Part shown: positions 8,261 through 30,221 of the stretch, piece by piece
Layout: each line of letters opens with the position of its first letter
Numbering within the stretch: position 1 is the stretch's first letter
NCBI GenBank assembly: GCA_946405785.1
Contig: CAMJIH010000004.1
Span: 1-37,620 of the forward strand
Source: an uncultured bacterium
GTDB lineage: Bacteria > Patescibacteriota > Gracilibacteria > Absconditabacterales > Absconditicoccaceae
DNA: 37,620 bases
Direction of reading: 5' to 3'
The notes under the pieces: generated by a model
Told to the model about the DNA's origin: nothing
The model's database searches: none
The model's input: only the letters and a program-made list of their open reading frames with translations
Program-made: the position numbers and the translations under genes

Positions 8261-8297
8261 GACTGCGTAACGTATCGTTATGCAGTCCTTTTTTTAA
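8261..8297. terminator. Bidirectional terminator overlapping the PAP2 stop
   Basis: GACTGCGTAAC pairs with GTTATGCAGTC and is followed by seven T on the plus strand, ending the 7612 gene. The hairpin overlaps the last codons and stop (8278-8280) of the convergent PAP2 gene, so it forms part of that coding sequence. Confidence 0.8.
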
Positions 8298-8925
8298 AGA
8301 AAAAATCTTTTACGATAAATAGATAAATCAAAGAAAGTAGTATTCATCAAATGATATCCGAGAAATAATGTACTCATAAATAAATTCTACTTACTGTAAC
8401 TCATAGCATAATAAACAAAGAAGCTATAATAATTATTCGCTTTAATGATTTATTCTTTATGAGATGGAAAGATAATAATATTATCAATCAATAAAGTGCA
8501 ACTGTATGCATAGTATGTCATGATGGAAAGCTATATCAGGTTTCAGTAACTAGTCTTAAAATATCAGGCCTTGGTCTTTGTATGATATTTTTAATTATTG
8601 TATTCGTTAAATAAATAATCACAGGTGTTGAAATTGAAAGTATAGCATAGATTCTATATCTCTTTTTATATGCAAAAATAGCGGTTAATATTAAAGCAAC
8701 AATTGGAATTCAATATGTCCCTCAGATATGAGTAAATGCTATAAATATTGGAGTAAGATTTGGAGAAAAACTTTCAATAATTCGATTATATATTCATTCA
8801 TCCATTAACGCTGTTCATCAAGACAGAACATCATAAGTTAGAATAGCAAAAAATATCAAAAGTAAAGTTATTTTTACCGATAATCTCATATAAGTTGGTG
8901 TATTCTTTTTTCATTGTGTTTTCAT
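8278..8925 (-). CDS. PAP2-family membrane phosphatase
   Basis: A 215-residue membrane protein (TGA as Gly) with all three PAP2 phosphatase motifs: KNIIQRPRPD, PSGH, and SRIYLGVHYFSDIIGG. The motif histidines act as nucleophile and acid/base in a vanadium-haloperoxidase-like active site. Such enzymes dephosphorylate lipid phosphates such as phosphatidic acid, phosphatidylglycerol phosphate or undecaprenyl diphosphate on the outer face of the membrane. Five or six hydrophobic helices are seen. The start at 8925 lies only 10 nt after the rhomboid stop, so the two genes are probably one transcript. Thirteen of 14 glycines are TGA. The lipid substrate is not determinable. Confidence 0.93.
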
Positions 8926-8935
8926 TTTCGTTTTA

Positions 8936-9547
8936 TTATTCATCTATATCAACGACATGTTTTGTTTTCCTAAACTTAGTTAATACATAAGCTATAATGA
9001 ATCATCCTATTAATCATCATAGGTGAGCTGACATAGAAACTCAAGGTAGGAATCAAATAGCAATATTAAGAACAATTGTACTTGTAATATCTCTGGTATT
9101 AATTCTACTTCTAATACTTTCAGGTAATGACATTATAAGTGCAACGATAGCTCAAAGAAGTCAGAAAATTGCTCACGAAGCTCATGCACTAAAACTAAAT
9201 TCTCATGTAAACATTTCAACAGCATATACTGTTAGATTTCACATAATTCAACTAAAAAGATATATTATCAAATACTTTCGTCTTCAAAAAGCTCTTTCAA
9301 CTGTTGGTCATATACAATATAAGGCATACATATTCATCAAAAGATGAACTAATCAGAAGTGAAGAAACATTGCTGTGATAGCTCTCCATGGTTGTAACGT
9401 AAATACAGGAGAATAGAATACTCAGAAATTAGCAGCAACTACATTATTAGTTGATCCTCAAGCTAATGTCTCTAAAATAAAAACAATCACATTTATTAAG
9501 ATAATAATAAATGTAACCTCAGAATTCTTTATAAAGTTTTTAATCAT
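8936..9547 (-). CDS. Rhomboid-family intramembrane serine protease
   Basis: A 203-residue protein (TGA as Gly) with six transmembrane helices. It carries the rhomboid hallmarks: HFGLVHLLMNMYAL in the helix 2 region, GPTVERAFGRRKY in the following loop, the nucleophile motif SAGASGAIFGLLGA, and the partner histidine in SAHLGGLIGGF. Rhomboids cleave single-span membrane proteins within or next to their membrane segment. The gene leads a two-gene unit with PAP2. Seventeen of 19 glycines are TGA, including both glycines of GASGA, which is strong evidence for code 25. The cytoplasmic C-terminal tail is short and charged. Confidence 0.95.
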
Positions 9548-9685
9548 ATCTATAATAACCAATAAACTCAATTAAAATAGTAATATGCTGCATTATTTCA
9601 ACATATATAATTATTAGAGTTTTTTTTGTTTGTTTTATCATTATTAATTATTATATTCTCATACGTTTAATATTCGGATAATTTA

Positions 9686-10324
9686 ATGAAAACAATAATC
9701 AAAACTTCTATAAATCAGAATATATTTTCTAGTAATGTTTATGTTATCAAATGAGATAATACTGTAATTGTTGTTGACCCATGATTCTATGATTGAGATT
9801 TAAGGGAATATTTAAAAGAAATCTGAAAAGTTGATGCAATTCTTTTAACACATGGGCATTGAGATCATATTAGAGCTGTTGATGAAGTTGTTAATGATTT
9901 TCCTAATACAAAAGTATATATTCATCAACAAGATAAAGAATTACTAACAAATACCGAATTAAATTGTTCTTTTTTAGTCTGAAGAAAAGCAATAGAGATA
10001 AAATCAATGGTTAATTTTTTTGAGGAATGAGAATTTGATATTTGAGAATTTCATATGAGAGTATTTCACTTTCCAGGGCATACTGATTGATGCTCAATGT
10101 TTTATTTTGAGAAATTTGAGACATTATTTCTTTGAGATACAGTAATGTGAGATAGTGTATGAACATTACGTACCCCTACTTGAGATTTCAACAAAATGGA
10201 GGCATCTTTATGAAAATTTAAACATTTAGGATTACCTGAAAATACCCAATGCTATCCATGACATTGAGAAGTCTGTAGTTATTGAGAAATATTAAGAATT
10301 AATCCGTTTCTAAATATGAGGTAA
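9686..10324 (+). CDS. Metallo-beta-lactamase fold hydrolase (glyoxalase II-like)
   Basis: A 212-residue cytosolic protein with no signal peptide. The dimetal site is clear: LLTHGHGDHI (THxHxDH motif, residues about 55-63), FPGHTDG with the third metal histidine, FLGDTV with the bridging Asp, and a final YPGHGE histidine. Short proteins of this kind are usually annotated as hydroxyacylglutathione hydrolase-like or general thioester/phosphoester hydrolases; the substrate cannot be assigned. The frame is MKTIIKTSINQNIFSSNVYVI from ATG 9686 to TAA 10322-10324. It is convergent with the YkgJ-like gene, separated by a palindromic terminator. Confidence 0.92.
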
Positions 10325-10392
10325 AAGAAGTTTTATTATCAAAATATAGAAAATATAACTGATCTTGAAAGAATCAAACGATTGAACTTTAA

Positions 10393-10420
10393 AAAGCTAG
10401 TAATAATTATTACTAGCTTT
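10393..10420. terminator. Palindromic bidirectional terminator
   Basis: A perfect 28-base palindrome (AAAGCTAGTAATAA and its complement) lies between the convergent MBL hydrolase and YkgJ-like genes and should end both transcripts. Its last bases touch the stop codon at 10419-10421. Confidence 0.75.
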
Positions 10421-10787
10421 ATTGATTATCAGGATTAAGACACCTTTTTGTAGGATCTTTTGGATTCAATCCAAAGACTCTACAAACCTCAGGACGAAGA
10501 TCATAAATCATACAAGACGATTTACAATCTTTATCATACTGTAAGAATTCACATCTGAGAACAGGTTCTTTACCAACAAACGAGCCACGGCCTTTTATTA
10601 TCTCCATTAGCCGTTCATAAGTTTTTAACGGTGTATAAATATCACCATCTTCATGATGAATTTGTTTAAACTGAATTCCTCTTTGTAAAGCAATATCTCT
10701 TACTGCAAGATATTCTGCTTCTTCGAACTCAGGAATAGAATGAACACAACACCAACCACAACGTTTACATTCAAATTTTTTTGCCAT
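10419..10787 (-). CDS. YkgJ-type cysteine-cluster protein (TGA-free class)
   Basis: A 122-residue protein with the CxxCGxCC start (CKRCGWCC, residues 7-14) and later cysteines in RCEFLQYDKDC, SCMIYDLRPEVCRVFG and RCLNP. This matches the YkgJ/UPF0153 family, thought to bind a zinc or iron centre; the cellular role is unclear. Unlike its neighbours it has no TGA, and its seven glycines are all GGN. On the minus strand the ATG follows TTGAAT, 17 bp, TATAAA and a leader of about 22 nt containing AAACAAAT, with no Shine-Dalgarno site. It is a single-gene unit next to a small RNA gene. Confidence 0.9.
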   Translation of the reverse strand: MAKKFECKRCGWCCVHSIPEFEEAEYLAVRDIALQRGIQFKQIHHEDGDIYTPLKTYERLMEIIKGRGSFVGKEPVLRCEFLQYDKDCKSSCMIYDLRPEVCRVFGLNPKDPTKRCLNPDNQ

Positions 10788-10858
10788 ATTATATTTGTTT
10801 TATTTATGATTTTATAATCAACCAGCATTTCAAATTCAAATCATTATTATCAATTTTA

Positions 10859-10887
10859 TTGAAATTAATAACAGAAATTATTATAAA
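10859..10887 (+). promoter_or_regulatory. Promoter of small RNA A
   Basis: TTGAAA (10859-10864), a 17-bp spacer and TATAAA (10882-10887), placing transcription start at about 10893, immediately before the first hairpin of the small RNA. Confidence 0.6.
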
Positions 10888-10892
10888 AAAGC

Positions 10893-10958
10893 TGTCTTCT
10901 TAAAGACATTTTCGATGTGCCGCTGACTTTCGTTGAGATAACGCGAGTCAGCTTTTTT
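10893..10958 (+). ncRNA. Small two-hairpin RNA A
   Basis: About 65 nt. The first hairpin is TGTCTT-loop-AAGACA. After a short spacer comes a longer hairpin: GCTGACT ... CGTT GAGAT AACG ... AGTCAGC, followed by six T. The same plan, including a TTG(A)GAT/TGA loop between CGTT/TGTT and AACG/AACA, is seen in the RNAs at 31089 and 33722. It lies between the divergent YkgJ-like gene and the phosphatidylserine decarboxylase gene, so it could alternatively be a leader or attenuator of the latter. Confidence 0.5.
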
Positions 10959-11018
10959 AATTGAAAAAATTAAACAAATAATTAAGTATTATATGATTTA
11001 TTTAAGGATTCTCTATCC

Positions 11019-12200
11019 ATGAAAATTAAAAAAATTCTGTTTTGGATTTTTGTAGTCCTCAGTATAGCTTATTATTTATTCAAAGGATTTAACCAATTCT
11101 ATTTTTTACGTCAACCAACACGTAACGTACCACATGATGATTCTCTTTTTGTAAGTCCTGCGAACTGAACTATTATAAAAGTAATACACCAAGATGATTT
11201 AACGGATTGAGATACTGAACTTTATAAAGAGAATAATGTTGTTATCGATGATTGGACTCAAGGGTTTTCTTGAGCAACATTAGTTTCAATTATGATGACT
11301 CCACTTGATGCTCATTTTCAAAAAGCACCATTAGTTTCAAAACTTATAGATCAACAATATCATGAATGACATTTCTTCAATGCAACAAAAACAAGTTGAA
11401 CTATGAGATCAACATTCCAAAACGAATATAATAGTATGTTATATTTAACTCCAGAATGATATAAATTCCGTATTATTCAGATTGCTGGTGCTATGGCTCG
11501 AAGGATTGTTTCATTATTAGAGCCTAATGATATTGTAGAGCAATGACAGTTTATTTGAGCCATCAAATTATGATCACAAGTAAGTGTTGTTCTTGACAGC
11601 AATTTCGATGTTCAAGTAAAAGAATGAGATTATGTTATCGATTGAGAAACTGTTATAGCAACCAAGAAAGATCCAAGTCATATTAACGATGATTTCGATG
11701 AATGAAACATCATATGAGCACCAGAAGTTAATATGGATATCGATAATGTTATTAGATATTGATTATTTGAGGTTATTCACCCTTCAATTATCGTTGGTTG
11801 GGTTTGATTCTTAATATTAATTGTTCAGATTTTTACTTGGTTGAAGATTTTTGAGAAAGTTAAGATAAAAAAGCGAAAGCTATTTATTCCTTTTTATAAC
11901 CTCTACTTAGTATTTAAGCTTGGCTGAAGATGATGGTGGATCTGGTTTATCGTTTTCACTCCACTTGTTTTCTCAGCATTACTTGTAGTGATCAACTTTC
12001 TAGAAAAGCCATGAATTATTATTAATATTCATCCTATTCTTTATATGATATGTATGAGTATCCCTTGGATTGCTATACAACTACCAATTGCTAAAAAATT
12101 CTGAAAAAGTAAGTGGTTTGGATTATGAATGTGACTATGGCCATCTGTATTCTATCCATACTTAGCATTTATAGATAAGAACGAATATAAAGGGCATTAA
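11019..12200 (+). CDS. psd: Phosphatidylserine decarboxylase fused to a DUF5684-like membrane domain
   Basis: A 393-residue protein (TGA as Gly). After an N-terminal membrane segment (residues 5-23), residues about 45-240 match the decarboxylase: SPANGTIIKV, GFSGATLVSIMMTPLDAH, a GHFFNAT segment, IQIAGAMARRIV and the self-cleavage site in AIKLGSQVSV, where the LGS serine would become the pyruvoyl group. The family makes phosphatidylethanolamine from phosphatidylserine. Residues about 250-393 are hydrophobic and resemble DUF5684 (PFYNLYLVFKLG ... PIAKKF ... YPYLAF). The same kind of domain occurs in the 19350-21992 protein. This fusion is unusual. The decarboxylase call is strong; the role of the added domain is unknown. 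Confidence 0.88.
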
Positions 12201-12218
12201 TCTTAACATAAAGAAAAA

Positions 12219-12247
12219 ACTCCAAGCGCATCCACTGGAGTTTTTTT
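12219..12247 (+). terminator. Terminator after psd
   Basis: ACTCCA pairs with TGGAGT around an 11-base loop, followed by seven T, 19 bases after the stop codon. Confidence 0.8.
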
Positions 12248-12437
12248 AATCTTTTCTACTTTTATCAAGACTGAGGTTAAGAGTAAATGTCGTAAAGTGC
12301 GTTTTTGTTTTTGTTTTTGGCCTTGGTATTAAAAAGTAGATTTACAAGATTAATCGCTAGTTTTTCTAACGACAACTAAGTATATTCAGTATTTAATGAA
12401 AATGCAAATGTTTGAAGAGAAAGTTTTTACCAGTCCT
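12248..12437. other. Intergenic stretch with no recognisable feature
   Basis: Between the psd terminator and the stop of the convergent MscS gene. It is T-rich with no open frame of note and no promoter I would defend. Confidence 0.4.
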
Positions 12438-13322
12438 CTACTCTGTTTTCTTTCTATCTTCAACAAAACTAATTATTTTTTCTTTAATTTCCTTAGCTTT
12501 AGTTCTTTTTTCAACAAATCAAATTCGAATTGTTGCTCTTCAATCAGAATTATATGATACATCTCGTTTATATTTAACTCATATATAACTTATAAAATAC
12601 CCCGTTTCAGATGCAGATTTAACTGGAAATAAAGCATCAAGATAATGCGTAAGCTCATTAGAAAACTCTTTAAAAGATATTTCATAGAGTTTTGGATCGT
12701 AAATAACAGTTAGAGAATCCTTTGTATAATTATCTAAGGTTAAATCAACTTTTATTATTGGATTATTCCATAATTGATAATTAGGTATACTATAGAATTT
12801 ACCAGTATTTTCTCAGAAATCATTCTTTCAAGATAATCAGAGATGGAGTAGTTTAACAAAAAGAATCTGTCATTGTATTTTCTCTCAATTAATTACTACA
12901 CTAATACAATCTCAAATTTTATAATTTCTAATAAGTAAGAAATAGGTTAGTAATGAAACTGAAAAAGTTTGAAACGTAATAAGAAATCATCAAACTCACA
13001 CAGCCCAAACAGCTCAAATAATTTTATCTTTTGTGAGAAGATAAATAAACATTAATAAGATTAAGAATATTGCTCAGAATAATTCAATATACTGAACCTT
13101 CTTATAATATTTAATATAAAACTCTCTATTCACAGTATTTCATGACCATTCATATGGTTCTACATATTTTTTCTTTAATCTTAATTTAAAAATTTGAGAT
13201 ATTGAAGACCAAAGAGCTATTATAAGAATAATAACAAAAATAAAAGGCTGTTCATAAACGAATTTAACAATTGAATTCCAAACATATTCAAAAGAATTTA
13301 ACACCTGATTTCACCAATCCAT
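12438..13322 (-). CDS. MscS-family mechanosensitive channel
   Basis: A 294-residue protein (TGA as Gly), ATG 13322 to TAG 12438-12440, close to the 286 residues of E. coli MscS. Three membrane helices are visible (about 24-42, 73-91, 94-130); the third is Gly-rich (GAVWAVGVGGFLIT), as in the pore helix. It is followed by the MscS beta-domain signature (LIRNYKIGDCISVVINGE, then IPNYQLWNNPIIKV). A mixed alpha/beta cytoplasmic vestibule domain follows to the end. Family members open on membrane tension to release solutes. It is divergent from a TetR regulator with 133 bp between starts, so regulation by that protein is plausible. Confidence 0.88.
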
Positions 13323-13455
13323 ACTATTTATATATTAGTTTATAAATTATTTTTACTATACACAAACAGTATTTTTAAACAAGATTAAATTTAACTCTTG
13401 CAATGATAAAGGAAATTTCTAAATTACAGTCAATTTATTTAAAACAAATCAGCTC

Positions 13456-14058
13456 ATGGTTAAAAAAATCAACTCTTTAACAGAGAAAAAAATTAAACAA
13501 GCAGCTAAAGAAGTTTTTTTAAAGAAATGATTAAGCTGATCTAGAACAAGAGAAATAACAGAAAAAGCATGAGTTAATTTAGCTTTACTTAATTATTATT
13601 TTGGTTGAAAAGAAGAACTCTTCAATATTGTTATGTTTGAAATGCTCGAAGAGTTTCAATGAACAATGATAAAAATACTAAACAATAGAGAAACTACTTT
13701 TGAAGAAAAAATGAAAACATACACAGATAGTTATTATGATTCTATCGTAGCAGATCCAAAAATATTCCCATTTATTCTTGAAGTTATGAGACAAAATATT
13801 GATGAAATAAAAAAGAGAATAAAAGAGTGAAATTGAGTATTTACAAAAACATATTTTGCAGAACAATACATGGAAACTACATGAAAAACATTAGATGATT
13901 TTAGAGATTTCTTTGTTAACTTTCTTGGATTAGTAGCTTTCCCTATTGTTTGAGCTCCTCTATTTACAGTATTTTTTGAATTAAAAGAAAAAGAATATTA
14001 TGATTTTCTTATAAGAAGGAAAAAGTTTATCTTTAATATCATACCTCATCTTTATTAA
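13456..14058 (+). CDS. TetR/AcrR-family transcriptional regulator
   Basis: A 200-residue protein (TGA as Gly). Residues about 10-55 form the TetR helix-turn-helix: IKQAAKEVFLKKG, TREITEKAGVN, LALLNYYFGGKEELF, matching the family pattern closely. The C-terminal two thirds are helical, as in a ligand-binding/dimerisation domain (RDFFVNFLGLVAFPIVG). It is divergent from the MscS gene, and the 133-bp gap is the likely operator region, although I see no clean palindrome there. Such proteins usually repress an adjacent gene until a small hydrophobic ligand binds. Confidence 0.92.
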
Positions 14059-14062
14059 AATA

Positions 14063-14092
14063 AAAGACCCATTAGCTTATTACTAATAGGCC
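14063..14092. terminator. Terminator between convergent TetR and 14083 genes
   Basis: An imperfect stem (CCcATTAG with CTAATaGG) between two convergent genes, T-rich on the minus-strand side. The TAG stop of the minus-strand gene lies inside the hairpin. Confidence 0.55.
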
Positions 14093-14427
14093 TCTTGGAA
14101 GAGATATTCTAGATACTCAACAGCATCGCGATATTCACATTTCAGTTCAAGCATAGCAAATCCAGAAATGTCGTAGAAAGTGATATTATTCGATTTAACT
14201 TCGATTATTATCGCATTCAATGCTCTATACTTTTCTATTGAAGTCTTATCGAAATCAACGAGTACGAAGCAGTCGACAATTTTCCAATCATTACCATGAA
14301 CCATCATTGGAAGTGGATCATAATTATCAGGAAGTAGAACTACCAGATCTGCCTCTCGATATGCATCTCTTTGGATAACAAAATCGATGTTTTTAGCTAC
14401 ATAAAATGAATTGACTTCGAAAAGCAT
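14083..14427 (-). CDS. Small protein of unknown function (TGA-free class)
   Basis: A 114-residue soluble protein with alternating beta strands and acidic residues (EADLVVLLPDNYDP, CFVLVDFDKTS, NAIIIEVKSNN) and a helical end (RDAVEYLEYLFQEAY). I recognise no family. It has no in-frame TGA and only GGN glycines, and visibly more C-ending codons than its neighbours. The start codon at 14427 follows a leader with AAACAAAATACT about 22-33 nt upstream, the same layout as the other TGA-free genes. It stands alone with its own terminator. Confidence 0.75.
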   Translation of the reverse strand: MLFEVNSFYVAKNIDFVIQRDAYREADLVVLLPDNYDPLPMMVHGNDWKIVDCFVLVDFDKTSIEKYRALNAIIIEVKSNNITFYDISGFAMLELKCEYRDAVEYLEYLFQEAY

Positions 14428-14543
14428 AAATTATGGATTTTTAAGTTAGTATTTTGTTTTATCAGTAATATTGTAGTTATTTACCTTGTAAAAACAAGTA
14501 ACTTATATATAGTTACTGCTAATATTTAGTTTTCAGTTAAATT

Positions 14544-15686
14544 ATGAGTTGAGTTTTGTCGCGGATTTTGATAATCGTTTGAATCCTAGCTGTAATCTTT
14601 GTAATCTATATCCAGCATCCATTATTTTGAGCTTCACCTAAATGAAAAAGATTAGAATTAATAAAGAAATCTAAACATTATGTTAATGGTCAGTTTAAAA
14701 ATTTATCAAAGACACCATTAATTACTCATTCCAAAATTTCACCGCGTTGGAATTCATGATTAAACTTAATCAAGAAAGCAAAAGAATGAGTTCGTCCTCC
14801 AAGAATTCCATCAATAAAAACAGATCTTTTTTCTTTAGATAGAAATATAGATTGTTTAGTTTGGTTCTGACATTCATCATATTTTATGCAACTTGCATGA
14901 AAGAGATTTTTAATTGATCCGACATTAGTTTCATGATCGCCCGTACCTTTCATCAATAGACCTTTCCCATGTGCAGATGTTTATAAGACTCCAGACATCC
15001 CAGCAATAGATTATCTCATTATTACACATGATCATTATGATCATCTAGATTATTTCACAGTAAAACCATTAAAAAACAGAATTTGAAAAGTTGTCTGCGG
15101 ACTTTGAGTTTGAGCTCACTTTGAGAGATGGTGATTCCATCAAAAAGATATCATTGAAATGGATTGGGAAGATTCATTCCACGAAAATTGAATAACAATC
15201 ACTTCATTACCAGCTCGTCATTTCTCTTGACGCTTATTTTCTCAAAACAATACACTTTGGAGTTCATTTATGGTTGAAGGAAACTCTAAAGCAATCTATA
15301 TTGCTTGAGATTGAGGATATGATACTTTCTATAAAGAAATTGGTAAGAAATGGAAAATCGATTTTGCAATCTTAGAAAATGGTCAATATAGTAAGAACTG
15401 GAGATATATTCATACACTTCCTGAACAGCTACCACAAACTATTAAAGATTTGTGAGCTAAATATATTATTCCTGCACATAATTCAAAATATGCATTATCC
15501 ACACATTTATGGAAAGAACCACTAGAAATTCTAAGCAAAGAAGCAGAAAAGGATAAATTCAATCTACTTACACCAATGATATGAGAGTTGTTAGATTTTA
15601 ATGCAAAGCATTATGATTTTAAAAAATGGTGGGACGATGTAAAAGATAGCGATTATCTTTTTATCAACTTTGTTAAAAAATGATAA
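14544..15686 (+). CDS. NAPE-PLD/RomA-like metallo-beta-lactamase hydrolase
   Basis: A 380-residue protein (TGA as Gly) with an N-terminal membrane anchor (residues 6-24). It matches the RomA/NAPE-PLD branch of the MBL superfamily: WFGHSSYFMQLAGKRFLIDP, an extended SGSPVPFINRPF loop, ITHDHYDHLDYFTV as the metal-binding motif, PARHFSG with the third histidine, IAGDGGY and PAHNSKYAL. NAPE-PLD cleaves N-acyl phosphatidylethanolamines; bacterial members are often annotated as UlaG-like or outer-membrane hydrolases, so lipid hydrolysis is plausible but not shown. Its last codons (TGA TAA) overlap the ATG of the ABC gene at 15680, so the two are translationally linked. Confidence 0.85.
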
Positions 15687-17437
15687 AGATATTTCAGCAA
15701 TTATCTAAAAAAGAAATATTCTTACTAATCTTTAGTATTTTTCTTATTCTCTTACATGTTTGGCTCGACTTAGAGCTTCCTCAATATATGTGAAAAATTG
15801 CCGAACTTGTTGAAGGTTGATGAAGTAAAATATCTGAAATTATTGAGCAATGAGAAATGATGCTTTTAATAACATTATGAAGCGTCTTTGTTACCATAAT
15901 CTTAGCTCTTATTTCATCAAAAATAGCGGCCAATTTTTCTGCTAAATTAAGACTTAAGATCTACGAGAAAGTACAATGATTCTCAATGGAGAATGTTAAA
16001 GATTTTTCTATAGCATCACTTATTACTAGAGAAACAAATGATGTAACGCAAATACAAGGAGCAATTGTACAATGATTACAAATATTTACTAAAGCTCCAA
16101 TCTTAGCTACTTGGGCTCTAATAAGAATCTTAGATAAAAATCCTATTTGGTCTACAGCTACTGGTATTGCTATTGCCATATTATTAGTTGTTGCAACAAT
16201 AGCATTAGTACTTGTTATTCCAAGATTTAAACTTATCCAAAAATTAGTAGATAATGTTAATAGAGTAGCTAGAGAACATATTAACTGAATTAGAGTAGTT
16301 AGAGCATATAATGCTGAAACTTATCAAGAAAGAAAATTCAACGAAGCAAATGAAAAGCTTATGAAAAATAATCTATTTGCAACAAGGACATTATCATTAC
16401 TGATGCCATCCGTTGATGTTATTATGAATATTTTAACTCTCTCTGTTTATTTCTTATGAGGAGTTATAATCTCACAAGCTGCATTATGAGATAGGTTAGG
16501 ATTATTCTCTGATATGATGGTCTTCTCATCATATGCATCACAATTAATAATATCATTTGTAATGCTAGTATTTGTACTTGTTTTAATACCATGAGCTGCT
16601 GTTTCAGCAAAAAGAATTGCAGAAGTTCTTAATACTGAGAGTTGAATCATTGATTGAAAGTATAATAAAGCAACAAAAGAAAAATGAAAAGTTGAATTTA
16701 AGAATGTCTGTTTTAAATATCCTGATGCTGAAGAAGAAGTTATAAGTAATATTACATTTACAGCAAATAAATGAGAGACTATAGCATTAATATGAGCTAC
16801 AGGTTGTTGAAAATCTAGTATTATAAATCTTATTCCAAGATTCTATGATGTAACAAGTTGAGAAGTTTTCGTAGACTGAATTAATGTTAAGGATTATTCA
16901 CAAAAAGCTCTAAGAGATAAAATTTGATATATTCCACAAAAATCATTTTTATTCAGATGAGATATCAAGGATAATATTTTTCTATGATTAGATGATTGTA
17001 ATAAAACTCAAGAAAGATTAGAAGAAGCTTCAAAAGTATCTGAATGTGATGAATTTATTAAAGAATTAGAAGATTGATTTGATGAATATGTAGCATTATG
17101 ATGAAACAATTTCTCATGAGGTCAAAAACAGAGGATTTCTATCGCTAGAGCTATTGCAAGAAAGCCTGAAATACTAATTTTTGATGATTCATTTTCTGCT
17201 CTTGATTACAAAACTGATCTAAAAGTAAGAAGTAATCTAAAGGCTATTTTATCATGATGTACTATTTTTATTGTAGCACAAAGGATTTGAACCATCAAAC
17301 ATGCTGATAAAATATTAGTTATTGATGAATGAAAATGCGTCGGTATATGAAAACACGAAGAATTATTAAAAAACTGTGAAGTATATAAAGAGATTGCATT
17401 ATCTCAGTTATCTGAAGAAGAATTAAAAAAACATTAG
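15680..17437 (+). CDS. ABC exporter half-transporter, degenerate-site subunit
   Basis: A 585-residue half-transporter (TGA as Gly) with six membrane helices (residues 1-310) and a nucleotide-binding domain (about 345-585). Walker A is GATGCGKSS, the signature is FSGGQKQR, Walker B is [12 protein letters not shown] and the switch region is VAQR. The catalytic Glu after Walker B is Asp and the switch His is Gln, as in the degenerate halves of heterodimeric exporters such as TM287/288 and BmrCD. The partner at 17459 has the complementary pattern. The ATG overlaps the stop of the upstream hydrolase by seven bases. Substrate unknown; lipid or drug export is typical. Confidence 0.93.
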
Positions 17438-17458
17438 TTTTATATTAGGATTAACACT

Positions 17459-19306
17459 ATGGTGAAAAAAGATATGGCTGATAAAGAAATATCAGAAAAA
17501 GAAAACAAGGGGAGGCGTCCATGACCAGGATGACGTTATGTTGATCCTTCTAAAAGAACTGTTAAAAATCCAAAGAAAGCAATAAAAGATATTTTTGTAT
17601 ATTTTAAAAAATATTTACCATTTTTTTCTATAGCTGTACTTTGTGCTATTCTAAGTAGTATACTTTCTCTTGTTGGTCCAACATATTTAAAAGATATGAC
17701 TAACTTAATCGTTGACTGATTATGATCAACTATTGATATGGATTGAGTTATAAAAATCTGAATAATTCTTGTAGCATTGTATGGCCTTTCAGGATTACTT
17801 TCAATGACTCAATGATTTGTTACAGCAACATTAGCTTCAAAGATGGCTTTACATCTTAGAAGAGATATTATTAAGAAATTAAACGCTTTACCTATTAAAT
17901 TCTATGATAAGAATACTACTTGAGATATCCTTTCAAGAATAACTAATGACGTATCCTTACTAACAAATAATTTAAACAACTCGTTAACTACCCTAGTTAT
18001 TTCTTTCATAATGTTAGTATGATCTTTGTGAATGATGATTTATACTAATATTATACTTACTTTAACTGCAATAAGTTCTGTACTTATATGAGCTGTTATT
18101 GTATTTTTCATTATGAAGAAAAGTCAGACGCATTTTGATAATCAGCAAACTTATTTATGAAAGATTAATGGACATGTTGAAGAAGCTTTTAGCGGTCATT
18201 CTGTTGTAAAAGCCTACAACGCTGAAGATGAATTAAAAGAGAAATTTCTAGATTTAAACGAAACATTGAAAAAGAATACTTTTATGGCAGAATTCTTATC
18301 ATGAATAACAATGCCTATTATTCTTTTTATCGGAAATTTAGGTTATGTAATTATCGCTGTTGTATGAGCAATACTAGCTTTTAATGGAGATATTACTTTT
18401 TGAGTTATCGTAGCATTCTTAGTTTATATTAGATATTTTTCAGATCCATTAACAAGAATTTCTTGATTAGCTCAAAGATTACAAGTAGCAACTGCTGCAG
18501 CTGAAAGAATTTTCTCATTTATAAGAGAAAAAGAACTTGATGATGAATCTAAGAAATGAGAGTTTAATAAATTCTCTAAAGGTGAAGTTGTATTTGAACA
18601 TGTAAAATTCTGATACGATAAGAAAAGAACAATTATTAATGATTTAAGTTTTACTGCTAAAGCATGAGATAAAATTGCTATTGTTGGACCTACTTGAGCA
18701 TGAAAGACTACAATAGTTAATCTACTTATGAGATTTCATGAGATTGATGATGGTAAAATAACCATTGATTGAATTAATATCCAAGATATGACAAGAGAAT
18801 ATATCCATAGTTTATTTTGTATGGTTTTACAAGATACCTGGGTATTTGATTGAACAATTAGAGAGAATATCGCTTATAATAAGGAAAATGTAACAGAGGA
18901 GGAGATTATATGAGCTAGTAAAGCAGTTTGATTACACCACTTTATTACTACCCTACCTAAAGGTTATGATACCGTATTAGATGAAAAGGTTTCACTATCA
19001 ATGTGACAAAAGCAGCAATTAACTATTGCTAGAGCTATGGTTTATAATGCTCCTATGTTAATATTAGATGAAGCTACATCTTCAATCGATACAAGAACAG
19101 AACAATACATACAAGATGCAATGGATAAATTAATGGAAAGTAGGACATCATTTATTATTGCACACAGATTATCAACTATCAAAAATGCTAATCTTATATT
19201 AGTATTAAAAGATTGAGACATTATTGAATCGTGAAATCATAATGAACTTATGAAACAAGATTGATTCTATAAAGACCTCTATGAATCACAATTTTCTGAA
19301 GAATAA
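17459..19306 (+). CDS. ABC exporter half-transporter, catalytic partner subunit
   Basis: A 615-residue half-transporter (TGA as Gly). It has a basic, Gly/Pro-rich N-terminal tail (residues 1-40, [18 protein letters not shown]), six membrane helices (to about 355) and a nucleotide-binding domain. Walker A is GPTGAGKTT; both TGA codons fall on invariant glycines. Walker B is [12 protein letters not shown] with the catalytic Glu, and the switch is IAHRLST. The signature is altered (SLSMGQKQQ instead of LSGGQ), which fits pairing with the degenerate site of the upstream subunit. It starts 21 nt after that gene and ends at a strong terminator, closing a three-gene operon. Confidence 0.94.
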
Positions 19307-19349: not shown

Positions 19350-21992
19350 TTATAAACTTTTATTATTGTTTGCCATTAATTGATCTAGATCAGAAATAGG
19401 CTCACTTGGATATTCTGTAGTATCTTCATTTTCTTCAGGAGCTACTTCAGCAGCTTCAGCATCATATGACTCCTCTACTATATCTTGTGGCATATCTTCA
19501 AATAATGAATCATCTGATCATATATCTTGTGTTTCTTGAGTATTAGGTTCGTTTTCAGCTGTTTCTTCTAACTGCTCTGCTTGTACTTCAGATTCAACAG
19601 CAGTTTCTTTTGGAACTATTCCTTCAGGTACTTCATTAATTATAGATTCCTCGCTCTCTGTATTTTCATATGATTCAGTATCTACTGAATTATCTTTAGT
19701 TAATTCTGGATCAAGTGATGGTAGAATCGTTTCAGTACAATTTTCTTCTACTGGAGTTTCTTCAACATCAGTAGTTTCAGTTGTTTCAGCAGATTCCGTA
19801 ATTTCTTCAGGTATTTCTTCAGAAATTTCAGTAGATTCAATTACATCGCTATTTTCTTCTACTGGAGTTTCTTCAACATCAGTAGTTTCAGTTGTTTCTT
19901 CTGATATTTCTGCTGTAGCTTCAGAAGTTTCTGTTACTTCACTTTCTGGTTCATCATCTAATATTATTTCATTTTCTTCTTCTGTTTTAATTTCTCAAAC
20001 AGGAGTTTCTGTATCATCTATTTGAGCGAATTCATCATCTAGATTTAATTGAAGTGAATCAGCTTCTTCATCTGATATTTCCTTATTATTTGAAAGATCA
20101 ATTTCATTATCTGAACCTTCTGGTGCTGCAATTTCAGAAGCAGTGACTTCTTCAGTTGATTCAGAATCTAATGTTAAATCAACATCTTCAGAAACTCATT
20201 CTGGTTCTTCTTCAGCCTTTACTGTTAAATCAACTTCATCAGATGTATTTAATTCTTCCTTATTTTCTTCTGTTTCAATTTGAGTATTTTCATCTACTGT
20301 TTCAGCAACAGTTTCAGTAGTTGATTCAGCAACAGTTTCAGTAGTTGGTTCATCAATATTTTCAGTAGCTGGTTCATCAATATTTTCAGTAGTTGATTCA
20401 GCAACAGTTTCAGTAGTTGGTTCAGTAACAGTTTCAGTAGCTGGTTCAGTAACAGTTTCAGTAGCTGGTTCAGTAACAGTTTCAGTAGCTGTTGTTTCTT
20501 CTTCTGGTCAAACAAAACGTTCAACGACATTATTTAATTGTTCTGATGCAACTACAGGAACTGGTATAGATTTTTCAGGTTCATTTACTTGTGGCTTATT
20601 TAAATCGTATGATAATTTCTTAGGTTGATATTCATCATTTCTAAGTCAAAGAAATAGTACAGTAATTGGGAAAAATAACACATTAAGAACTGATGCAAAT
20701 TTAGACCAACCAAATCTTCTAGCAACTCTATAATTCCACACAATACAAAGGATTAATGTAATAAGTCCCAAAACTCCAGTAGCAGCAAATGTAATCATAG
20801 TTCATAGATTTAAGAAACCAATTCATAAAGCAGCTAAAGGAACTAACCATGGAATAATTCACAACCATTTACTTGTTTCAGCAATTTCTGAATATACAAC
20901 TGTTCCATAAATTGGAATCAAGAAAGCCCATCATCTTTTTCATGCTTTTTTATAGATTTCCCATGTAGAAATAATCAATAATGTTTGATAAATTTTCCAT
21001 ATAAGTACTAATATAGATATAATTCAAAAGAATCCACTAACTACTGCTAATACTGATCCAAATGATCAACCAAACGCACCCAAAAAATCACTATCAAGTG
21101 ATAATCCACCAATAGAAGATTCTTCATTTGATACTTCTTCAGCAATTGTTTCATCTTCAAGACTTTCAATATCTTCGATTTCACCAGTTAATTCTTCAGT
21201 ATCTCATGTACCATCTTCAATTTCTAATTCATCAGATACATCTCAAGATAAATCTAATGTTTCATCACTAGTACTATCAACAACTCCTAATTCTTCAAGA
21301 GCTGAAGTTAATTCATCAACTTCTGGACTATCTGTTTTGATTCAATCTCAAAGTTTCTCATTAATTTCTGTTGAGAAATCAGTTTCAATTCATGCATAAG
21401 TATCTTCAACTGTTGATGCTTTAATTAATTTAAAACAAGAATTCTTCCAAGTCCATTCTAAATTATCACTTACTCAAATTACTTCATTACCTGCATTTTC
21501 ACAGAAAGCATTTTCACCTACTTTATTTAATCTTCCAGGTACAGAAATTTTTTCTAAATTGTTTTTATAGAAAGCTTCATCACCAATAGTTTTTAAAGAC
21601 TTTGGTAATTTGATTGCTTTAAGTTTATTATTTTTAAATGCATATTTATCAATTATTTCAACTCCTTCAGGAATTTCAATTTTTTCAATAATATTATCTT
21701 CAAATGCTGATTCACTTATTTGTTTAAGTGTTTCAGGCAACTTAACTGTAGTTAATACTGTATTTTTGAATGCTCATTTTCAGATTTCAGTTACTTTTTT
21801 ACCATCAATTGTTGATGGAATTTCAATTAAATTATCAAAACATTGATAGTTAATAATTACAGCTCAACCAAATCAAGCTTCAGAATCAGCTATTCAAAAA
21901 CAATCAGACTTTGTTTCAGCAAAAGTTGCTGTTGAAGCAAGTCATAAACCTAAAATTCATAATAACAATAATTGTTTCAAGTTCTTTTTCAT
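19350..21992 (-). CDS. BspA-like leucine-rich-repeat surface protein with membrane domain and acidic repeat tail
   Basis: An 880-residue protein (TGA as Gly), ATG 21992 to TAA 19350-19352. Residues 1-25 are a signal peptide. About 45-180 hold four or five LRR_5 (BspA-type) repeats, such as LPETLKQISESAFEDN and IPEGVEIIDKYAFKNN. After an acidic segment, about 320-450 form a DUF5684-like membrane domain (FLIPIYGTVVYSEIAE ... WNYRVARRFG). From about 460 to the end there is a very long Glu/Thr/Ser-rich acidic tail, including octapeptide repeats around ATETVTEP. BspA-type repeats mediate adhesion in oral bacteria and protists. The sandwich of exported LRR, membrane block and acidic tail is odd; the tail's side of the membrane is uncertain. 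Confidence 0.85.
20299..20493 (-). repeat. 24-bp tandem repeats in the acidic tail
   Basis: About eight tandem copies of a 24-base unit (TTCAGTAACAGTTTCAGTAG and close variants on the plus strand) encode repeats such as ATETVTEP, TTETVAES and ATENIDEP. In-frame expansion or contraction is likely. Confidence 0.85.
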
Positions 21993-27056: not shown

Positions 27057-30000
27057 TTATTCAGCAGCTCAAGTTGATGCTGTTGCTCATGTTACAGCTT
27101 CTGCAGTTGTTCATGTAGCAGCTTCAGCTACAGAACCTGTTGAAACTTCTGCTACAGCTCAAGTCTCAGCTACAGCTCAAGTAGAAGTTTCATCTTTATG
27201 ATTAGCTCTAAAATATTCCCATTCTTCTACTTCAGATCAATCTTTTAATTTGCACATTCCATATTGACTTCAATCTTCAGCTGTTTTAATATTTAATGTA
27301 CCTCATTGTTCTACGCAATATGTAGAAGCAGGATTAGCTATAGTTACAGTATTTCAAGTTGCAGCTACATTTTCTTCTTCCTTAGTATTTTCAGTATCTG
27401 CTTTTTCTGAAGTTTTTGCAGATCTATACATCATAAGCATTACCCATCATCTTACTTCTTGAATTGTAGGATCATCATTAGAAAGGATTTCATGATCTTT
27501 AAGAGCTGCTATATGTTTAGAATAGAAGTCTTCTCATTCTGTATTATTTACATTACCATATAATACTCTAGAGAATACTGTAGCAAATTCTGCTCTAGAA
27601 ACTAATCCATTTGGATTAAAATACTCTAATGCAGATCCATCAGCATTAATTCCCATAATTTGATATTGATAAGCTTTTACAATATAACCAGCTAAATCTC
27701 CTAGTGTATCATCAACATCTTTATATTGAGGGATATCTGTCTTTATTGGAGTCTTTTTCAATACTGATGAAATGTATTGAGACATCATTTTAGCTAATTC
27801 AGCTCTTGTTAGAGGATCTGAAAGTCTAGCTTTATCTGCATCATTGATAGTAGTAATACCATTTTTGTAAGCCCATTTGTATGCTTCTAATTGTTCATTA
27901 TCATATAGTTTTTTAGCTGCATCAGAAATAATTACATCTGAGTTATCTCCTTCATTAGATATTTCTCCAGTAGTTGGTGTTTCATCTTTTACTTCTCATC
28001 CTAAGTTAATTTCTTCCTTATTACTTCAAGTTTCAACTTTAGATTCTTCTTTTTTAGGAGCTGTATATGATGATCCTCCACCTCAACCTACTGAACTTGT
28101 TGTTGTAGTTTTTTCAGTTTCAGTATATGCTACAAATGTTGATGCAGAACATGCATAGATTATAACAAATCAATTAATAGGAGTAATTGCTCATCAATTA
28201 TATTGATAACTAGTAGCCATACCATTTACAATATTACAAATTGCATTAGCACTTGTTGTTAATCAATCAAATCAGAACTTTCATGATCAATGTTTTACTT
28301 TTATTCTCAAAGGAGCACTTCAGTTAACAGCAATTCTAATGGCAACTGGTCTTGAAAATATAGCAGTTCATCAAAAATCTAAAGACAACCTTCATTTAAT
28401 AGACAAATTTTCATATCATTGATCCAAAATTTCATTATTTTCAGATGAAGAAATGTTTACATTTTCTCAAGTTTTTATACCATCATTACTTCATGAAAGG
28501 AAATCATAGATATCATTTAATTCAACAGATAATCCACCTGTTTTTATAGTTGTTCATTCAGCAATTTGTACTAAAGATTTATTATCTGGATCAACTGCAG
28601 CATCAGCCAATGATTCCACTACATGATTAGTTCATTTTTCAAAAACTGTATATCAAGGAACTAAAAACTCATCAAGAGTCGTTGCATTACATCATTGTTG
28701 ATTATTATTTCATCCATTAAACTCAGAGCATGCTGCTGTTTTTGCTACAGTATTTCAAATAAATGTTCATCAATCAATATTATAAATAGAACCTTCTGAA
28801 GCAGAAATTCTTCAATTAAATGTTCAACTATGTACATTTACAGTTCATGGTTTTGATCTGTTTTCACCATTACCCTGTGCTCATCAATAAAATACTTTAC
28901 CTTGTTTATCTGCAGGTCATGAGCATGATTCACCCCTTCCTGTAGTCTGCTCTGGTGTCTCTCAATAATATTCTCATCAATTAATATCTATTACTCATTC
29001 ATCATATGCATATACTGCTGCTGTATTACCACATATTGCTGTATATTCTCATCAATTAATTGTTGCTTTTGAACCAGCTCATGATATATATACAGCAACT
29101 CATGCTCTATATGTTCCTCCATTTAATACAAGCTCTCATCAATTAACAGTTATTGAACCAATTCATCAATCATTTCATTCGTCATTAATTATCAATTTTC
29201 AACTAGTTTGTGTTAATTTTCCACTGATTTTATAGCCATTTAAATCTAATGTAAGATCTTTAGCAATAGTAATATTTCAATTAATGTCTCATCATAGTGT
29301 TATAGAAGAAACCTCATTATTTCAAAGGCAATAATTTAAACCGTTTGATGTTGATATATTATCGCATAATATTTGTGAAACAATATAATTACTATTAGAT
29401 TCAATTACTTCATATCAATCAACTAGGAATGAATCAAGAGTCGTTGCATTACATCATTGTTGATTATTATTTCATCCATTAAACTCAGAGCATGCTGCTG
29501 TTTTTGCTACAGTATTTCAAATAAATGTTCATCAATCAATATTATAAATAGAACCTTCTGAAGCAGAAATTCTTCAATTAAATGTTCAACTATGTACATT
29601 TACAGTTCATGGTTTTGATCTGTTTTCACCATTACCCTGTGCTCATCAATAAAATACTTTACCTTGTTTATCTGCAGGTCATGAGCATGATTCACCCCTT
29701 CCTGTAGTCTGCTCTGGTGTCTCTCAATAATATTCTCATCAATTAATATCTATTACTCATTCATCATATGCATATACTGCTGCTGTATTACCACATATTG
29801 CTGTATATTCTCATCAATTAATTGTTGCTTTTGAACCAGCTCATGATATATATACAGCAACTCATGCTCTATATGTTCCTCCATTTAATACAAGCTCTCA
29901 TCAATTAACAGTTATTGAACCAATTCATCAATCATTTCATTCGTCATTAATTATCAATTTTCAACTAGTTTGTGTTAATTTTCCACTGATTTTATAGCCA

Positions 30001-30221
30001 TTTAAATCTAATGTAAGATCTTTAGCAATAGTAATATTACCATCAGAATTAGAATTGAGTATTACAGTATCACCATCATTTGCAGCGGCAATTGCATCTG
30101 CTAATGAATCATATCATGTAGTTCATACATTAGCCACATAATCTACAGCCACACTAATTCCTCCGAATCAGGCCCCAGCTGCAAGGATTGTTAGCAATCC
30201 AAATAAGAGGTTTTTCTTCAT
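27057..30221 (-). CDS. Large beta-helix/SLH surface protein with exact internal duplication and DUF333-like segment
   Basis: A 1054-residue exported protein (TGA as Gly). After a signal peptide (MKKNLLFGLLTILAAGAGFG), the N-terminal half repeats short Asn/Gly-rich units (TVNGGELVLNGGTY, ATINGGEYTAI, VNVHSGTFNGRIS) expected of a right-handed beta-helix. Residues about 62-263 and 316-517 are identical copies. A module (KVKHGSG ... CSASTFVAYTE) shared with the 4041-7439 protein follows. The C-terminal region has SLH-type repeats (LTRAELAKMMSQYISS and LVSRAEFATVFSRVL), then a DUF333-like segment (CVEQGGTLNIKTAEDGSQYG, then KLKDGSEVEEWEYFRA), and an Ala/Thr/Gly/Val low-complexity end. It is probably cell-wall anchored; adhesion is inferred. 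Confidence 0.85.
28671..29276 (-). repeat. 606-bp direct repeat, copy 1
   Basis: It matches 29433-30038 at an offset of exactly 762 bp (254 codons) with no difference I can find. It encodes about 202 residues of beta-helix repeats in the surface protein gene, so the duplication keeps frame. Confidence 0.9.
29433..30038 (-). repeat. 606-bp direct repeat, copy 2
   Basis: Second copy of the direct repeat, nearer the N terminus of the protein. Sequence diverges abruptly at both edges. An identity this complete implies a recent duplication or ongoing gene conversion. Confidence 0.9.

Follow-up and report, generated by a model that had tools for sequence, protein, structure and literature searches.

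Phosphatidylserine decarboxylase (PSD) converts phosphatidylserine (PS) to phosphatidylethanolamine (PE), and the alpha chain of the ordinary enzyme is a short peptide that is held by the fold alone. A gene at positions 11019 to 12200 of the window (the whole 37,620-nucleotide stretch of DNA that we analysed) places a membrane domain of the DUF5684 family behind the active site of such an enzyme, in a genus of tiny bacteria that are probably host-dependent. Is this fusion real, on which side of the membrane would its enzyme work, and where would its PS come from? It is an open question by what route candidate-phyla bacteria that do not synthesise phospholipids form their membranes; one proposal is that they scavenge from other bacteria (PMC8080830 and its reference 29). 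A duplicated PSD that lacks an upstream PS synthase and is joined to a membrane module with its N-terminus facing outward would be a specific and testable enzyme for the fate and the side of scavenged lipid; with it, the uncharacterised DUF5684 family gains its first enzyme partner in the present data set.

A PSD and a DUF5684 domain in one reading frame

When TGA is read as glycine (table 25), positions 11019-12200 of the plus strand are a single open frame of 393 amino acids that holds 21 TGA codons and no internal TAA or TAG. Under the standard code (table 11) no open reading frame of 60 or more amino acids spans the same interval. Seven glycine positions are invariant across 23 PSDs, and six of these (G50, G117, G180, G185, G203 and G209) are TGA here. 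Because these codons fall on invariant PSD glycines, including Gly185 of the cleavage site, both the gene and the reading of TGA as glycine are supported.

The protein begins with a helix that is predicted to be a signal anchor (residues 1-27, MKIKK and then a hydrophobic run; 11019-11099, all features of the gene being on the plus strand; hydropathy over 6-24, AlphaFold helix 2-29). A PSD core of the short type follows (residues 28-217; 11100-11669) and matches PF02666 (PS_Dcarbxylase) over residues 28-214 with an E-value of 4.9e-31 and 108.4 bits against a curated Pfam cut-off of 22. Within it lies LGS (residues 184-186; 11568-11576), where self-cleavage is predicted between Gly185, a TGA codon, and Ser186, the future pyruvoyl group; GS is present in 23/23 PSDs. 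An acidic linker of about 35 residues (218-252; 11670-11774), 46-77% identical among three fusions, is predicted to be disordered (pLDDT 33-43 over 221-250). The remaining 141 residues (253-393; 11775-12197) make up the DUF5684 domain, which matches PF18936 over residues 289-392 (6.2e-08, 33.6 bits against a curated cut-off of 27.4) and carries PFYNLYL at 291-297 and AKKFG at 358-362. The original prediction had been of a PSD with an LGS self-cleavage site, followed by a DUF5684-like membrane tail of about 140 residues with PFYNLYL and AKKF, and the two Pfam matches and the positions of the motifs agree with it in each of these parts.

The whole fusion is present in all three genomes of the genus (G000, G014 and G015), with 73% and 61% identity to the window copy in the other two, and this conservation, taken with the Pfam E-values, excludes a chance origin. 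The fusion of PSD to DUF5684 is real. It might be attributed to an assembly chimera, a frame error or a wrong genetic code, given that the gene is undetectable under the standard code and that in G014 it is divided over two contigs, but we regard such an artefact as extremely improbable: the identical fusion occurs in three genomes and in two distinct genomic settings, invariant glycines are encoded by TGA, and the two G014 contig ends (C1 and C38) overlap exactly over 141 nt inside the tail and together carry the remainder of the tail. An assembly or frame error had been named beforehand as the refuter of the prediction and is itself refuted by the three genomes and the exact overlap. A further match to the tail, at the C38 end, had the appearance of a third fused copy in G014 and was discarded, as it is the other end of one gene and repeats the C1 end exactly over 141 nt.

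Distribution and origin of the fusion

Our search of 353 genomes of the class found 23 PSD genes in 20 of them; 20 of the 23 genes have no tail, in line with the claim that the architecture is unusual, and no fusion was found among these genomes outside the genus. In a phylum sample of 379 genomes the PSD part matched in G000 and G291 only and no additional fusion was found, the PSD counts for the phylum being lower bounds since a BLAST-type search may miss distant PSDs. A scan of genome contigs for the fusion returned two loci only, both in record CAMVNG01 (taken as G015), and viral contigs that were scanned for it gave no match. The open-licence literature contained no relevant prior mention of DUF5684, of PSD in Patescibacteria or candidate phyla, or of phosphatidylserine in Absconditabacteria. 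So far confined to one genus, the fusion gives a known enzyme family a new domain architecture.

Each genome of the genus has, additionally, a PSD without a tail (G000:C15, G014:C26, G015:C1). In a tree of the 23 PSD cores the three fusions form one clade (support 100/99), the three tail-less copies of the genus adjoin it (95/89) and G029 lies outside both, the fork that orders fusions, tail-less genus copies and G029 being drawn open. The fused clade has the longer stem branch (0.27 versus 0.10). As a sister clade with about 60% identity and identical catalytic residues, the tail-less paralogues resemble the fusion; they differ from it in stopping at about residue 217 and in having FGS instead of LGS and DVH instead of DAH. 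By the tree, the resident tail-less PSD was duplicated in the ancestor of the genus, with a single fusion event to follow, and the fused gene is the diverged copy of the pair.

The enzyme core and its catalytic residues

A phmmer search of the PDB matched E. coli PSD at an E-value of only 0.13, and fold comparison was used instead. The predicted core matched E. coli PSD 7cnz with a Z of 13.7 and an rmsd of 3.0 over 163 residues, and Foldseek found 7cnx_C at 3.6e-07. The E. coli enzyme (7cnw, 6l06) shares with the fusion its fold and the equivalents of Asp142, His144 and Gly-Ser254, and differs from it in having Asp90 and no tail. Set beside the short-type bacterial and archaeal PSDs (PF02666; NF003685, TIGR00164), the fusion has the same core fold, GS cleavage site, invariant His and N-terminal hydrophobic helix, but it falls below all NCBIfam PSD cut-offs (for the short equivalogs, 134 versus 183 bits with NF003685 and 133.6 versus 230 with TIGR00164), has Asn where SPADG has its Asp and adds the C-terminal DUF5684 tail.

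In the phmmer alignment to 7cnw, Asn49 of SPANG (residues 46-50; 11154-11168) corresponds to E. coli Asp90, and Asp97 and His99 of PLDAH (residues 95-99; 11301-11315) correspond to Asp142 and His144. His99, Gly185 and Ser186 are kept in 23/23 PSDs. An acid is not strictly kept in the group: the Asp142 position has Asp in 18 of the 23 and Asn in five, and four have Asn at both acid positions. That SPANG makes the enzyme inactive was dismissed as a simple reading, since the Asp90 position is Asn in 15 of the 23 PSDs of the class and Asp in one. We take Asp139 of the malarial PSD to be the Asp of SPADG. Its change to Ala abolishes processing, according to extracts from PMC10172927, and for that reason Asn49 is a real caveat for self-cleavage. 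For E. coli PSD, PMC7952604 describes Asp90 and Asp142 as able to stand in for each other in self-cleavage, and names His144 as the main partner of Ser254; with Asp97 retained at the Asp142 position, self-cleavage of the fusion is plausible. Among the fusions the PSD part is 81-89% identical and the tail 47-59%, and the stronger conservation of the PSD part suggests that the enzyme is under selection. We consider the fusion likely to be catalytically competent.

DAH is common to all three fusions, the remaining PSDs having D/N-V/I/M-H at this place; in the G014 and G015 fusions AWR replaces the ARR found in 19 of the 20 tail-less PSDs (the other, in G037, has AKR). These changes, along with Asn at the Asp90 position, mean that kinetics or substrate may differ.

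The DUF5684 tail and the side of the membrane

AlphaFold models the tail alone (25 rows) with a pLDDT of 90.0 and a pTM of 0.76, as long helices at 255-280, 305-327 and 333-360, a kinked helix at 365-385 and a short helix at 291-301 that bears PFYNLYL. The full-length model (23 rows; pLDDT 70.7, pTM 0.56) has a single N-terminal helix and a disordered linker, and placement relative to the core is not fixed in it. Compared with the PDB, the tail matched no chain at E <= 0.001, the best being VIA, with a Z of 2.6 over 59 residues and an rmsd of 2.7.

A second DUF5684 domain lies on the minus strand of the window (20568-21056) in a BspA-like LRR protein (19350-21992, or 22034 with a TTG start). 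It occupies residues 369-470 and scored 25.8 bits in one Pfam search and 29.3 in another against the cut-off of 27.4, as befits the shared domain that the original prediction had seen there. DUF5684 proteins (PF18936) have, like the fusion tail, a four-helix membrane domain, an IP-x-YN helix and an A(K/R)(K/R)FG loop; they differ in bearing LRR or acidic ectodomains, or none, where the fusion has an enzyme. A G014 member of more than 500 amino acids (C20, L059 2951-4522) has an N-terminal membrane domain with a long acidic stretch after it, and genus g4 (L034, L025, L030, L028) has small members with a long lysine-rich C-terminal tail.

In 24 of 24 DUF5684 proteins the net charge is more positive after the first DUF5684 helix than before it, and across this helix the fusions go from between -3 and -4 to between +2 and +6. 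A signal-peptide-like start, judged by eye and without a predictor, together with an acidic or LRR ectodomain is found in the BspA-like protein, in C48 and in the proteins of G034, G038, G039 and G040, and this points to an outside location, in these relatives, for the part that precedes the first DUF5684 helix. Together with the charges and the KIKK-led N-terminal helix, these relatives place the PSD domain of the fusion outside; by domain homology and the positive-inside rule, both of them indirect, we hold this location to be probable, with moderate confidence. In the fusions the N-terminal helix carries similar charges on its two flanks (N +3 to +4, C +2 to +3) and by itself leaves the side undecided.

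PSDs are usually cytoplasmic, and if the tail-less copies are too, the fusion would have needed a topological flip. An N-terminal membrane helix is already present in those copies, so what is new in the fusion is likely to be the membrane side and not the anchoring itself. E. coli PSD is monotopic via amphipathic N-terminal helices and acts on the cytoplasmic face, as described in extracts from PMC7952604. The G013 PSD has no Lys or Arg ahead of its N-terminal helix, unlike the copies of the genus, an arrangement that would suit a cytoplasmic PSD.

TgPSD1pv of Toxoplasma is a eukaryotic PSD that is released from dense granules into the vacuole and, to our knowledge, has no DUF5684 tail. The secreted enzyme can decarboxylate PS outside the parasite, according to PMC7949121, and it gives a host-dependent organism a PSD outside its own cell that can act on outside PS, as is proposed for the fusion. 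By analogy it offers a working precedent for an outside PSD; it is not a relative of the fusion architecture.

Supply of the substrate

PF01066, which includes the common PS synthase, matched in none of the three genomes of the genus and in 14 of 14 controls, and PF01148, the CDP-diacylglycerol synthase family, matched in none of the three and in 13 of 14 controls, in family searches of drafts that are 77, 90 and 99% complete. The PF01553 acyltransferase family is present in all three, which indicates that the family search works in these genomes. PF03034 (base-exchange PS synthase) matched in none of the three, with no control genome matching either. Across family f1, PSD occurs in 13 of 49 genomes and PF01066 in four; 12 of the 13 PSD genomes are without PF01066, and in the other, G013, the gene (C11, L051 7871-9029), a CDP-alcohol phosphatidyltransferase, adjoins the PSD. 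By these matches, the PSDs of f1 appear mostly to lack the enzyme that would feed them.

As PF01066 and PF01148 were not found in the genus, its PS is probably scavenged. We judge this moderately likely from the family searches, a PS synthase of another family being possible. Candidate-phyla bacteria without lipid synthesis are reported to recycle the lipids of other bacteria (PMC8080830). It had been suggested that the tail anchors the enzyme at contact sites for lipid uptake; uptake has become more plausible, there being no PS or CDP-diacylglycerol synthase matches, while for contact sites no evidence was found.

PF13091 (PLD-type) matched, within the genus, in G015 only, in a two-domain protein with a hydrophobic export-like N-terminus (C1, L079 1381-2559). 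It was considered as a cytoplasmic PS synthase and set aside, because with that N-terminus it looks like a secreted phospholipase D-like protein. In this 99% complete genome it is a possible tool to attack or process outside lipids.

A proposed mechanism and its rivals

We propose that the N-terminal signal anchor would hold the PSD core at the outer face of the single cell membrane, and that the proenzyme would cleave itself between Gly185 and Ser186. The beta chain (1-185) would be anchored via the N-terminal helix, and the alpha chain (186-393) would have the pyruvoyl group at its start, then the linker and the four-helix DUF5684 anchor; self-cleavage, an N-terminal helix and a DUF5684 tail on the alpha chain would together mean that both chains remain anchored. 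Scavenged PS, probably derived from the host, would be turned to PE in the outer leaflet before or during incorporation. An extracytoplasmic, self-cleaving PSD that has both chains anchored and turns scavenged PS to PE is in our estimate an evenly balanced proposition, in which activity, side and substrate source are what we infer. Rather more tentatively, this could be a bacterial surface PSD that remodels the PS of another organism to PE, in a bacterium that itself has neither a PS synthase nor a CDP-diacylglycerol synthase.

The enzyme might instead be active in the cytoplasm-facing position usual for PSDs, in which case PS would be flipped inward beforehand and the DUF5684 tail would serve as an additional anchor or as a docking module. 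The charges that flank the N-terminal helix leave room for this by not deciding the side, and MsbA-like ABC transporters are close by in two genomes. However, the first DUF5684 helix would then run opposite to that of the signal-peptide-bearing relatives and the K-rich loop (KIFEKVKIKKRK) would face outside, contrary to all 24 proteins compared, and we think a cytoplasmic location unlikely, though it deserves some weight. Less probable again is a changed substrate, or a non-catalytic lipid-binding role, for the fused copy, with housekeeping decarboxylation left to the tail-less PSD that each genome of the genus also has. The longer stem branch of the fused clade, the DAH and AWR changes that are specific to fused copies and a fold common to other pyruvoyl decarboxylases (PsiD 8zia, Z 10.8) would all suit such a change. 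It sits poorly with the retention of His99, Gly185, Ser186 and most invariant residues in all three fusions, with the PSD being the best-conserved part of the protein and with the presence of Asp97, given that Asp90 and Asp142 complement each other in E. coli (extracts from PMC7952604). The outward-facing, doubly anchored PSD is the reading that we prefer.

Genomic neighbourhood

The surroundings of the fusion (8278-19306) are common to G000 and G014 and not to G015; they comprise a PAP2 phosphatase, a rhomboid protein, a metallo-beta-lactamase, the fusion, a TetR protein, a metallo-beta-lactamase hydrolase and two MsbA-like ABC transporters. The part of the window at 13456-19306, with the TetR regulator, the hydrolase (PF12706) and the two transporters, is kept beside the fusion in G014. 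The PF12706 hydrolase may resemble NAPE-PLD-like enzymes.

In genus g19 a divergent DUF5684 gene with a signal peptide lies about 0.8-1.5 kb from a tail-less PSD in four of six PSD genomes (G034/L045, G038/L047, G039/L048, G040/L046). We rejected this adjacency as independent support, since the four genomes are one clade in the tree and count as one event. Co-occurrence across f1 is weak: DUF5684 is present in nine of 13 PSD genomes versus 13 of 36 others (Fisher p 0.054, relatedness ignored).

Elsewhere in the window, a gene for 1054 amino acids (27057-30221) contains antisense open reading frames with identical translations (28695-29126 and 29457-29888), which amounts to a long internal repeat with copies 762 bases apart. 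The repeat is visible in the protein translation and is either a real repeat or an effect of assembly.
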